Origin: Dolomitihabitans soli
GTDB lineage: Bacteria > Actinomycetota > Actinomycetes > Streptosporangiales > Streptosporangiaceae
Reading direction: 5' to 3'
DNA length: 64,000 nt
NCBI RefSeq assembly: GCF_022213955.1
Contig: NZ_JAKNTW010000001.1
Coordinates: 124,001-188,000 of the forward strand
Below the pieces are notes generated by a model, which saw only the letters and a program-made list of their open reading frames with translations, was not told the DNA's origin and ran no database searches. Below are positions 17,125-20,672 of this stretch, piece by piece (within the stretch, counting starts at the first letter, position 1; each line of letters starts with the position of its first letter). The position numbers were made by a program, and so were the translations under genes.

Positions 17125-17772
17125 TCAGCCGGTCGCGCGCATCTTTGCGGCGGCGCGCCGCGCGATGGCGGTCAGGGTGCCCGCGTCCGGAGCCTCGTAT
17201 CCGAGCTGGCTGAGAATCATGATCTTATTCTTGTGCCGCGCCAGGACCAGCACGTTGGTCAGCACCAGCGACCCTTCGGCGACCGCGATCCCCGCCGCCC
17301 ACGTCTGGGTGGCCACGGCGGGGAAGCGCACCCCGCGGACGCTGACGGCGACGGTCCTGCGGGGCTTGGGCCTGGTGTAGGTCTGCTCGAAGTCACGGCA
17401 CTTCCTGAGCTTGGCGACCGCTTGGTCGAACGCCTTCTTCGCCGAGCCGGATCGGTAGCTCCGTAAGGTCTCCATGACCCAGGGGCCGGTCTCTCCCTTG
17501 GCGTAGGCGACGGTGGCGTACTGGACGCCGCGCCGCCTGGGCTTGCTGAACTCGAGACCGTCAAGGGTCGACGAGCAGGTCGGGGCGGTGCTGGACTGGT
17601 ACTTCTGGTAGCTGGGCGTGAAACGTGAGTATCCCGCGGGCAGGTCCGCCCTGGTCAGCAGGCCGCTGCTGAGAGGTGCGGCCGATCCCGCGGGAGCGGC
17701 GACGGCGGGCTGGGCGGTCGCCAGCAGGGTGAGGGCCACGGCGGCCGTGACCAGGGTGCGACGGTGGGACAT
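17125..17772 (-). CDS. Secreted protein with a sensor-like domain, function unknown
   Basis: The 215-residue product begins with a clear signal peptide (MSHRRT, a hydrophobic core AAVALTLLATA, and an AVAAP cleavage area near residue 26). The mature part has exactly two cysteines, C66 and C125, probably a disulfide. Its fold pattern (GLLTRADLPAGY start, RSYRSGSAKKAFDQAVAKLRKC middle) loosely recalls extracellular PknH-like sensor domains. ATG 17772 is preceded by GGAGGA, which lies inside the end of the M48 gene four bases upstream. It is therefore very likely cotranslated with the peptidase. Its function is unknown. Confidence 0.7.
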   Translation of the reverse strand: MSHRRTLVTAAVALTLLATAQPAVAAPAGSAAPLSSGLLTRADLPAGYSRFTPSYQKYQSSTAPTCSSTLDGLEFSKPRRRGVQYATVAYAKGETGPWVMETLRSYRSGSAKKAFDQAVAKLRKCRDFEQTYTRPKPRRTVAVSVRGVRFPAVATQTWAAGIAVAEGSLVLTNVLVLARHKNKIMILSQLGYEAPDAGTLTAIARRAAAKMRATG

Positions 17773-17776
17773 GTGA

Positions 17777-20176
17777 TCATTCCTCCAGGAACGGGAACGG
17801 AACCTTGACCTCTGGTGCCCGCGGCGTCGGCGGCGGATAGCGGAGCAGATGGTCGCAGCGCCGTACGAAAGCCCGCCACGCCCTCCTCGCCATGTCGCCG
17901 GACCGCTCGCGAGAGCTGCGCACGAACAACGCGCCCGCCTGCCGGAGCAGGGCGTCCTCAAGCCCGGAGAGCTCGTTTCCGAGCCTCAACCGGGCCCCGT
18001 GATCACGATCACCGCCCAGCGCGCGAACACCGGCCGTGCGCAGCCACAGGCACCCCGCCACCGGCTGGGAACTCGGCGGGAACGGATCCGGGGCACTGGG
18101 AACGGCCGAACCCCACCCCGCCACCACGACCGCCGGTACGGCGAGCAGCACGGCGAGCACGCCACCGGCCGCGAGGGAGAAGATCCGCGCCCCGGGCCCT
18201 CGGTCGAAGCGGGCCGTTCCCTGGTCGGCGGTTCCTCGGTTGAAGCGGGCCGGTCTCTGGTCGGTGGTTCTTCGGTTGACGCGGGCCGTTCCCTCGCCAG
18301 GGGAAGCCGCTCCTTGGTCGAGGCGGGTTGGCCTCCGGCCGGGGCGGGCTGTCCCCTGACCGAGGCAGACGGCCACCCAGCAGGCGACGGGTGCTGCCGC
18401 CAGTCCGTAGCCCGCCTCCGTGGACAGGACTTGGGCGGCCAGGGCTCCGGGGCGCCACGTTTCGGCGGCCGCCAGCCGCGCCGCCAGAAACCACGTGCCG
18501 ACCGGGATCGCGGACACGACCGCCGCCACGGGGACGGCGAACCGCCAGGAGCCGGCTCCCCAGCGCCGCAGCCACGACTTGGCCAGGACGGCGAGCCACC
18601 ACACGATCAGGGCCGTGGTCAGGGGCAGGGAGAGGGCGAGCGCGACCGCCGTGGCCGGCGCGGCGTCGAGGATGTTCAACGTCGCCGCGCGCTCCGACGC
18701 GGCGGGGGAGACCACGTTCCACTGCGCCGCCGCGCGAGGAGCGGCAAGGGCGCCCGCCACCAGGCCCACTCCCAACGCCAGACCGGGCCCAAGGAACCCG
18801 TCCGGCGGTCTGCGCAAACGACCCGCACGGCCCGCACGGCCCGCACTGGGTGAACCTGGTGAACCTGGCCAAATGGGTGAACTGGGTGAACTGGGTGAAC
18901 TGGGTGAACCGCCGGTGGTGGTGTGACCGGGTTCGGTGGTGTCCGTTGCGCCCGCGTTGTTCGCGTTGTTGATCGCGTTGCCTTCAGCTTCCGATCTGGC
19001 CGTCGCCCGCCATACCGCCAGGCCCACGATCCCCGTCATGGTCACGGTGATCGGCAGGGCCGCGAGCCAGTAGGCGAGGACCGGTTCGATCGGCAGTGCC
19101 GTCTCCGCGAGCACCGAGAGCTCAAGGATCACCACGCCGGCGGCGAGCCCGGTGCCGAACGACTCGGCCACCGATGCGCGCATGGTGAGACCGGGACGTT
19201 CGAGCACCTTCCGGCGCTCCTCGATGGTGGGATGCAGCCGGATCCACCAGGAGCGTTCGGCACTTGCGGCCTTGACGACACGCGTCACCTCTGCGCCCAT
19301 GGCTCGTCGAGCCCACAGGTCGGCGTCGTGTTCGCGGGCCCTGAGAACGGCGACGAACGTCGCACCGGTCAGCACGGTCAGGACCGCGAGCCGCCAGCAC
19401 AGCGACCAGTCGAACGCCTCGTTCCAGGCCGACGCGGCGACCACGACCGGCGCCGCCACCACCGGCACGAAGAGGAGTACGGAGAAGACGGCGAGGTAGG
19501 AGCGATCGACGTCACGATTCCTGAGATGTCCCAGCTCGTGCAGGAGCGAAACCGCCGAGGCGGCGGATCCTTTGGCCATGCGCAGCGGGAACGCGGTCGG
19601 GAGCATGATCCGATGGGCACGAGCCCTGCCGTACGCCAGAGGGGAGGCGCGTCGGGCGCGTGTGGAGATCATGAGGGTCGGCGTCCTGGGCAGGTCGGCG
19701 GCTGTCACGATGCTGGTGACCTCGGGTGGCGGGTCGGCCCATCGCCAGGCGTGCTCGCGCCGTTCGAGGAGGCGGGGGGCCGCCAGGTAGGCGACGACGG
19801 TGAGCAGGGCGACCAGGGCGGGCCCGGCCATGGGGACCAGCGACTGCTGGAGGTGAAGGCGGTCCGTGCAGTCCAGCAGCGCCGTGATCCCGTCCGTCGC
19901 GACCTGCGACGCTTCGGCGCACACCCGGTTCGCGGCAGGCCAGCTCTCCCGGCCGAGGACGAGGAACACGTAGCCGCCGAACGTCGATCCCGCGACCACG
20001 GTGAGGAACAGCAGTCGCAGGCGCACCAAACTGGGAGGCGGCAGCACGAACGGATCCACGTCGGGCGTCGGGTCCGTGTCGGTTGCCGTGTCGGTTGTCG
20101 TGTCGGTTGGTGGATCCGTGTCGGCCGTGGGGTCCGTGGCGGCCGTCGGGTCAGGCGCTTCCGGGGGTCGCGTCAT
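17777..20176 (-). CDS. Membrane-embedded M48-type metallopeptidase, large
   Basis: The 799-residue protein has an acidic/Thr-rich cytoplasmic start, paired hydrophobic helices near residues 52-75 and 115-133, the zinc motif HELGH at 213-217 and the third-ligand motif EHDAD at 282-286. It therefore keeps the complete active site of Ste24/HtpX-like peptidases. After more membrane helices comes a low-complexity linker of Ser-Pro repeats (about residue 445), then a second group of hydrophobic helices, a Gln/Asn/Arg-rich repeat stretch and a last membrane segment. ATG 20176 overlaps the end of the upstream small gene by 26 bases. It is about twice the usual family length, and the C-terminal half is unassigned. 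Confidence 0.78.
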   Translation of the reverse strand: MTRPPEAPDPTAATDPTADTDPPTDTTTDTATDTDPTPDVDPFVLPPPSLVRLRLLFLTVVAGSTFGGYVFLVLGRESWPAANRVCAEASQVATDGITALLDCTDRLHLQQSLVPMAGPALVALLTVVAYLAAPRLLERREHAWRWADPPPEVTSIVTAADLPRTPTLMISTRARRASPLAYGRARAHRIMLPTAFPLRMAKGSAASAVSLLHELGHLRNRDVDRSYLAVFSVLLFVPVVAAPVVVAASAWNEAFDWSLCWRLAVLTVLTGATFVAVLRAREHDADLWARRAMGAEVTRVVKAASAERSWWIRLHPTIEERRKVLERPGLTMRASVAESFGTGLAAGVVILELSVLAETALPIEPVLAYWLAALPITVTMTGIVGLAVWRATARSEAEGNAINNANNAGATDTTEPGHTTTGGSPSSPSSPSSPIWPGSPGSPSAGRAGRAGRLRRPPDGFLGPGLALGVGLVAGALAAPRAAAQWNVVSPAASERAATLNILDAAPATAVALALSLPLTTALIVWWLAVLAKSWLRRWGAGSWRFAVPVAAVVSAIPVGTWFLAARLAAAETWRPGALAAQVLSTEAGYGLAAAPVACWVAVCLGQGTARPGRRPTRLDQGAASPGEGTARVNRRTTDQRPARFNRGTADQGTARFDRGPGARIFSLAAGGVLAVLLAVPAVVVAGWGSAVPSAPDPFPPSSQPVAGCLWLRTAGVRALGGDRDHGARLRLGNELSGLEDALLRQAGALFVRSSRERSGDMARRAWRAFVRRCDHLLRYPPPTPRAPEVKVPFPFLEE
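18846..18909. repeat. 9-bp tandem repeat inside the M48 gene
   Basis: About seven copies of a 9-bp unit (TGGGTGAAC and the variant CTGGTGAAC) run through the M48 gene. On the coding strand they translate to repeated Ser-Pro-Ser and Gly-Ser-Pro units of the linker. The unit is a multiple of three, so copy-number change would alter linker length without a frameshift. Confidence 0.85.
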
Positions 20177-20672
20177 CGGAACCGTCCGGCGCGGTCTTGT
20201 ACTCCTGGGCCCTGAGCAGTTCACCGAGCACCGCGTCCGAGAGCAGTACGGCCCGCTCCGGATCGTTCCAGATGGTCAGCGCTTTGACGCGAACCGTTTC
20301 GGCGAGCCGGGTGCACGTCTCGGGATCCATGACCGGAACCGGAGCCTCCTGGAGCGCCTGAACGGCTTTCTTGCCCGCTCTGCGGCGTCCGATCAAGGTG
20401 AAGAGGGGCTTCATCCGGCCGCGTACCTGCTCGTTGAGTTCATCTTTCACCGCGTCGAGCAGGATCCCGCCGAGAAGGGTGACGACGACGGTCGCCCATT
20501 CGACTATCTGCGGCTCCAGCCCGGAACCGAGCATGCTTTCCCGGGCGCGCCGCTGATTGTCGGGAGTATGGATATAGGTCACCCATATCTCCCCCAAATA
20601 GGGCAATTCCTCGCTGTCGAGGCGGGCAACGACGGCCTCGACGACCTGGTAGGAGGTGGGACGATTCCCCAC
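20151..20672 (-). CDS. Small single-pass membrane protein upstream of the M48 peptidase
   Basis: The 173-residue product has one central hydrophobic segment (IVEWATVVVTLLGGILLDAV) followed by a basic, helical region (GRMKPLFTLIGRRRAGKKAV) and an acidic tail. GTG 20672 is preferred because GAGAGG precedes it; GTG 20714 is an alternative that adds 14 residues. Its stop lies 26 bases inside the M48 gene, so the two are tightly linked and probably cotranslated. I do not recognise a family. It may be a partner or regulator of the peptidase. Confidence 0.62.
   Translation of the reverse strand: MGNRPTSYQVVEAVVARLDSEELPYLGEIWVTYIHTPDNQRRARESMLGSGLEPQIVEWATVVVTLLGGILLDAVKDELNEQVRGRMKPLFTLIGRRRAGKKAVQALQEAPVPVMDPETCTRLAETVRVKALTIWNDPERAVLLSDAVLGELLRAQEYKTAPDGSDDATPGSA

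Follow-up and report, generated by a model that had tools for sequence, protein, structure and literature searches.

A conserved gene pair for a large membrane M48 metalloprotease and its small helical partner as a candidate receptor module

A minus-strand cluster of three open frames in the genome of Dolomitihabitans soli (assembly GCF_022213955.1, contig NZ_JAKNTW010000001.1, positions 124,001 to 188,000; this whole stretch of 64,000 nucleotides is called the window hereafter) encodes, in this order, a small protein, a large M48 protease and a secreted protein, which raises the question of whether these genes act together and in what kind of process. An earlier note on this DNA had proposed that the three form an undescribed membrane proteolysis or signalling module; a membrane-proteolysis module is indeed supported, but its conserved unit is a pair and not three genes. 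That the small gene and the M48 gene belong to one conserved module is well supported by the sequence comparisons below, and we see an even chance that this module works as a BlaR1-like regulated membrane-protease receptor with a cytosolic adaptor, a mechanism that we infer.

The gene pair and its distribution

The genes of the cluster are placed as follows.

20151..20672, minus strand: small all-helical protein of 173 amino acids, proposed adaptor; GTG start, preceded by GAGAGGGA
17777..20176, minus strand: large membrane M48 metalloprotease, 799 amino acids from its ATG, identified by PF01435 and zinc motifs, alignment and model
17781..17786, minus strand: GGAGGA ribosome-binding site of the secreted gene within the end of the M48 gene, read from the sequence
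17125..17772, minus strand: secreted two-cysteine protein of 215 amino acids including the signal peptide, a distant PknH_C relative and proposed sensor subunit

The layout given by the earlier note was confirmed, including the frames, the 26-base overlap between the small and M48 genes (20151-20176), the 4-base gap from the M48 stop to the secreted-gene start (17773-17776) and the ribosome-binding site inside the M48 gene. The open frame of the small protein extends to 20714, its start being taken as the GTG at 20672. Scans for sigma-70 promoters and terminators gave nothing above shuffled sequence, and the small and secreted proteins of the window, both scanned, had no Pfam or NCBIfam model above cut-off.

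Single-protein searches made the cluster look like an orphan, as the small protein of the window matched in 10 of 297 genomes of the same family and the secreted protein matched its own genome only, among 60. A 20-row profile of the small protein (A6), used for the wide searches, gave 61 genes in 54 of the 297 family genomes, and a large M48 of the same type was present within the fetched stretch for 58 of these 61. This pairing, together with 38-43% identity in four relatives that carry all three genes (the triad), shows the small frame to be a real gene, against the refuting case of an untranslated frame that the earlier note had named. The M48 gene of L025 was missed by BLAST with the window protease and found by profile, while L029 was without one by profile too. 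Counted among the 58 are L133, where the small gene and M48 gene lie on opposite strands, and L145 (6460-7278, genome G263), a decaying pair in which one degenerate frame holds pieces of both proteins.

The phylum sample gave matches in 5 of 396 genomes, the window's included, and all six small genes of the other four adjoin an M48 gene. Starting from the M48 side, a small gene adjoins in 14 of 16 named loci, which come from Actinomycetospora, Nonomuraea, Nocardia, Marinitenerispora, Rhodococcus, Kitasatospora, Streptomyces-type genomes, two Anaerolineae and Caballeronia. The pair is found outside the family in other actinomycetes, Anaerolineae and Caballeronia; it is carried on megaplasmids of Streptomyces and Caballeronia and reaches up to four loci in a single genome. 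Four plasmid-borne pairs, verified with the profile, are annotated as "hypothetical protein" and "M48 family metalloprotease", so that the link between the partners is invisible in annotation.

The pooled counts comprise 79 small-gene loci; L031 and L033, which duplicate L105 and L106, had been removed. The M48 gene lies downstream on the same strand in 72 of them, upstream in two, on the opposite strand in one and in a merged frame in one, and is lacking in three. A possible M48 start occurs no more than 60 nucleotides from the small-gene stop in 61 of the 72 same-strand loci (with a -4 overlap in 22), counts that take the nearest possible start and are biased to short gaps. The M48 gene is short or split in two frames beside an intact small gene in L117 and L125, and split into two frames in one Caballeronia grimmiae assembly (L037, 7504-9800); a plasmid of another strain of this species holds an intact M48 copy adjoining type VI secretion genes (L200, 5983-8280). 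In L072 (8037-9677), the small-protein frame runs on without a break from an upstream stretch that matches DUF6545 and has an HExxH-like motif, which may reflect a gene fusion or merged frames.

The two partners also diverged together. Distances between small proteins and between proteases were correlated (Mantel r 0.84, n = 73 loci), and none of 500 shuffles reached this value, which is inflated by shared species history; L145, L117, L043 and L037 were excluded from this and from the cysteine and C-terminal analyses as fragments or loci without a partner. Genomes with several pairs add weight to the co-divergence, as they mostly keep the same nearest relative for both partners: this holds for each pair of the four-pair genome and for both pairs in each of G145 and G520, while one pair of G668 (L073) disagrees. 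Twenty arbitrary 14.5-kb regions of related genomes gave no match to the small-protein or secreted profiles and one to the M48 profile, and the arrangement exceeds chance, as these control regions are nearly empty.

Among all fetched loci, no neighbour cluster other than the secreted gene recurred at a fixed position beside the pair. The complete triad, in the same order, occurs in five genomes (the window's and L021-L024), and others have the small protein and the M48 protease only. The expectation that the three genes would be conserved together in relatives does not hold for the triad as a whole: a close secreted gene was found in the window, four other sampled family genomes and Actinomycetospora. 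On this comparison of loci, the conserved unit is the pair of small gene and M48 gene, and the secreted gene marks a rare subtype. STAND-type genes lie near 7 of the 79 pairs and in none of the 20 control regions, numbers too few to inform, and a defence island was set aside on this uninformative count and the lack of a recurrent neighbour. Beta-lactamase-type serine hydrolase genes lie less than 5 kb from the pair in L032, L135, L139 and L152, in mixed positions and orientations, probably by chance.

The protease and its candidate sensors

The window protease matches Pfam Peptidase_M48 (PF01435) at 39.7 bits against a cut-off of 20.3, and the HELGH and EHDAD motifs that had been read from its sequence are both present. 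Of 78 proteases, 77 retain the HExxH motif; only the split gene of L037 is without it. The length of the window protease, described earlier as double, was read correctly but is not exceptional, since 69 of the 75 relatives measured span 600-1,152 amino acids (some starts being over-extended). The parts of the protein are listed below.

19868..19921, minus strand: stretch between the first two membrane helices with Cys86 and Cys103, both invariant in 14 sequences
19526..19540, minus strand: HELGH zinc motif, residues 213-217; H213, E214 and H217 invariant in the 8- and 14-sequence alignments
19319..19333, minus strand: EHDAD third-ligand motif, residues 282-286; E282, A285 and D286 invariant in the same two alignments
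about 18845..18914, minus strand: Ser-Pro linker, a short DNA tandem repeat recognized by eye
17843..18067, minus strand: C-terminal helical domain (residues about 704-778) that has a Cys pair and is predicted to lie outside; about 50% identity to triad relatives

The predicted model (mean predicted local distance difference test (pLDDT) 71.6, about 90 over most of residues 45-410) consists of two long membrane helices and an M48 core, followed by more hydrophobic helices and, with low confidence (just 50-77), a helical domain at the C-terminus. Among the chains ranked by Foldseek, its best solved structural match is BlaR1 (8exq; Z 11.7, 185 residues, 5.6 Å, covering residues 48-313), followed in order by Ste24 (Z 10.2), a soluble M48 peptidase, BepA and HtpX. 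At least two cysteines are found in the zone between the first two helices in 70 of 74 proteases and in the last 130 amino acids in 57 of 74. Cys86 and Cys103 probably form a disulphide outside the cell, a location that follows from taking the M48 site as cytosolic, as in BlaR1. The Ser-Pro linker noted earlier is present in the window protein but not conserved, being an insertion absent from 7 aligned relatives, and looks like the product of slippage at a site where the loop tolerates it. The later linker contains another stretch, basic and repetitive (window about 18190-18330, GTARFDRG/GTADQ-like repeats), which most relatives lack.

The secreted protein has a signal peptide, and its two cysteines recur in each of the five triad copies. 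A profile of these five found matches in 17 of 297 genomes; E was 2e-97 or better for the triad genomes and no better than 5.7e-12 for the remaining twelve. In Actinomycetospora L030, a more distant copy occupies the equivalent position. PknH_C (PF14032) is weak in three of the five triad copies (best E 0.0077), and a distant relative, L063, scores 24.7 of the 27 bits of the cut-off with the whole profile covered. Against solved structures, the secreted-family profile gave no match at E ≤ 1.

A related domain occurs within the protease itself in other members. Among 74 proteases, two have PknH_C in their C-terminal half (Pfam scan, best E 3.3e-5, members not individually identified), and the secreted-family profile points to L075 (E 3.7e-8) and L039 (E 0.004) as the carriers of the fusion. 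In hhalign comparisons with the secreted family, L075 (P 1.2e-7) and L039 (P 1.6e-4) precede the next protease (0.0047) and the best control open reading frame (0.011). As a related domain is fused to the protease C-terminus in these two members, the secreted protein is probably an outer sensor, as would be expected of a detached sensor domain of the same receptor; of the substrate, chaperone and sensor roles suggested before, only the last has evidence. Relatives of the secreted protein are also fused to alpha/beta hydrolases in four genomes (L051, L052, L054 and L055; Pfam-checked for L051 and L055).

The small protein, EAD7 and the competing readings

The small protein is modelled as all-helical (pLDDT 80) with one hydrophobic helix, and 64 of the 79 small proteins have a Kyte-Doolittle mean above 1.6 over 19 residues. 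Its fold had no PDB match at E < 0.4 by Foldseek (best Z 5.4), which does not establish a new fold, and the sequence profile reached E 0.044 at best against solved structures. A weak VMAP-C match in one small protein (E 0.022) was set aside as chance. Pfam contains a model of the EACC1 domain, which had no match at E ≤ 0.1 in the 79 small proteins. Downstream of the Actinomycetospora triad (L030, 6968-9222), a GNVxNSVxAVG motif is present both in a membrane protein with a zinc ribbon and in a small protein; we take this motif to be one that occurs in EAD-type systems (EAD, effector-associated domain).

A full EAD7 domain lies between the hydrophobic helix and the C-terminal helices of the small protein of L035, from Anaerolineae (83.1 bits, cut-off 32). 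In a 346-genome sample of this class, the small protein matched in five genomes. In one of them, L190/L193, EAD7 is found at the equivalent place (83.2 bits) with an M48 gene adjoining; L034 and L191 are pairs without EAD7, and the fifth match, L192, lies on a fragment of 3 kb. The two genomes of the EAD7 type have eight and six EAD7 copies, and there are none in five genomes whose small proteins are without the domain. Read from their translations, other EAD7 proteins include a TIR-formylglycine-enzyme type in both genomes and a CHAT/NB-ARC type in one; EAD7 also stands at the N-terminus of predicted membrane proteins in both (L157, L194, L162 and L195). In Kaur et al. 2020 (PMC7159879), EADs are proposed to bridge effectors and core components via homotypic contacts, and the EAD literature groups EAD7 with domains that mainly recruit effectors.

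In the receptor mechanism that we propose, the cysteine loop, the C-terminal domain and the PknH_C-like protein would sense something outside the membrane, and the signal would travel through the membrane helices and free the cytosolic M48 site, as in BlaR1. The small protein would be the cytosolic partner that holds or activates the protease or presents substrate to it, and may itself be cut. Where the small protein carries EAD7, in some Anaerolineae, it probably connects the protease with proteins of the conflict or cell-death type. For the module at large, conflict or stress signalling is more likely than housekeeping. The conflict reading is weakest for the window copy, whose small protein is without an EAD; an envelope or stress response driven by the sensor is no less likely here. 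More tentatively, the pair might represent a widespread unnamed class of transmembrane protease receptors that combine an M48 protease, an obligate cytosolic helical adaptor and interchangeable outer sensors (built in, fused as PknH_C-like domains or separately secreted), and that EADs plug, in some lineages, into NLR/TIR/caspase-type immune or cell-death networks.

Several results weigh against the receptor reading, which is built on sequence and predicted structure. The lead of BlaR1 over Ste24 is small, and a Z of this size can come from a shared gluzincin core plus helices; Foldseek alone gave no match with E < 0.2 for the protease model, and none of the PADLOC families matched in 14 proteases, scanned alone. 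Three of the 61 family small genes (L029, L141 and L153) have no M48 nearby by profile check, and 2 of the 16 M48 genes have no small gene. PknH_C scores 15.1 bits on the window secreted protein, below its cut-off of 27. The relation between the fusion domain and the secreted protein is remote, since a pairwise search with the L075 domain reaches the window protein at E 0.17 only and, with default filters, the secreted profile did not return L075 among its matches in 10,133 sequences. EAD7 is found in only two of the four Anaerolineae pairs and in none of 78 other small proteins scanned, the window copy included, and the two EAD7 genomes count as one case rather than independent ones because they share orthologous EAD7 proteins.

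Two serious rivals remain. The pair could serve membrane-protein quality control: an HtpX/Ste24/Oma1-like protease would break down damaged membrane proteins, the small protein would be an adaptor reserved for its substrates, and neither would signal. Membership in M48, a weak similarity to HtpX models in up to 12 of 14 members and the presence of Ste24 and HtpX among the structural matches agree with this. An HtpX orthologue is nevertheless rejected by the NCBIfam HtpX equivalog (14.7 bits against a cut-off of 341), the spread of the pair is patchy (54 of 297 genomes in the family and 5 of 396 in the phylum sample), the window's genome has nine other M48 matches, and sensor-type domains, fused or separate, and EAD7 would be unexpected in housekeeping. 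We consider this explanation unlikely, yet the better of the two.

Slightly less probable is a system in the style of toxin-antitoxin or abortive infection, in which the small protein restrains the M48 protease until its release kills or arrests the cell. Such a role would fit a small gene that comes first and is translationally coupled, a conserved active site, a patchy and multi-copy occurrence (four loci in one genome) that extends to megaplasmids, and the listing of EAD7 among mainly effector-recruiting domains in the EAD literature. The lack of PADLOC matches in the 14 proteases speaks against it, as does that of any phage match (one protease query), on which a phage origin was also set aside; moreover, known toxins do not resemble a large multi-pass protease that bears outer sensor-type domains. 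A third alternative is that the genes do not act together and are neighbours by chance or share no more than a transcript, to which the solitary small genes and the opposite-strand pair L133 might point. It is already contradicted for the pair by these sequence data and highly improbable, given the pairing in 58 of 61 and 14 of 16 cases across phyla among otherwise unrelated neighbours, the co-divergence and the nearly empty random regions.

If the receptor reading is true, bacteria would possess another type of BlaR1-style receptor, with sensing on the outer and cleavage on the inner side of the membrane and independent of beta-lactams, and membrane proteolysis would be linked to the way in which their conflict systems use adaptors. 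Testable predictions follow from the pair and from its natural fusions on the binding partner, the sidedness of each part and the cleavage target.

Comparison with known systems

BlaR1 has a cytosolic protease site, an outer C-terminal sensor and a partner, BlaI, encoded nearby (PMC9834060). The window protease resembles BlaR1-BlaI and MecR1-MecI in its membrane helices, its putative cytosolic HExxH...ExxxD gluzincin site, its proposed outer C-terminal sensor and its partner nearby, and BlaR1 is its best structural match, narrowly ahead of Ste24. Unlike BlaR1 and MecR1, which belong to M56, it is an M48 protease by Pfam (PF05569 17.2 bits against a cut-off of 31), and its second membrane half is longer. 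No penicillin-binding sensor family was found at E ≤ 0.05 in 74 protease C-terminal halves, and no repressor family in the 79 small proteins (best helix-turn-helix-type matches E 0.04, in two); a BlaI-like repressor role was rejected, as no recognised DNA-binding domain occurs among the 79. By analogy of design, the protease may work like BlaR1, yet it is not a member of that family, since the M56 score, the penicillin sensor and the repressor partner all fail.

With HtpX, Ste24 and Oma1 the protease shares the M48 catalytic domain and motifs, but it differs in being two to three times as long as HtpX and in its obligate small partner and sensor-type additions. JspA-LppA of Sinorhizobium (PMC10659215) is similar by description, in that an M48 protease and a small envelope protein act jointly in a signalling pathway; JspA, however, is a LysM lipoprotein predicted to be periplasmic, without a small cytosolic helical partner. 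The PknH extracellular domain family (PF14032) is resembled by the secreted protein and by the domains fused in L075 and L039, which have a conserved Cys pair, but the domain is coupled here to a protease and not to a Ser/Thr kinase, and the window copy falls under the cut-off.

No published account of the pair was found in the open PMC literature, which is weak evidence because most subscription papers and preprints lie outside that scope, and "M48" and "HtpX" are absent from the main text of PMC7159879 and of its 2021 sequel. Among published systems, the one whose design comes nearest by analogy is "System 4" of Kaur et al. 2020 (PMC7159879), a membrane-associated conflict system of two genes, EACC1 and caspase. 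Its peptidase is a caspase (or the effector a cyclase) and its small protein is alpha+beta with a transmembrane helix, whereas the peptidase here is a multi-pass M48 and the small protein all-helical; its EADs are EAD1 and EAD2, in contrast to EAD7 here (L035 and L190 only). Both systems place the gene of a small protein that has a single hydrophobic helix, and that is free or (here in L035 and L190 only) joined to an EAD, on the 5′ side of a peptidase gene, and both occur mostly in actinobacteria and sporadically in proteobacteria.

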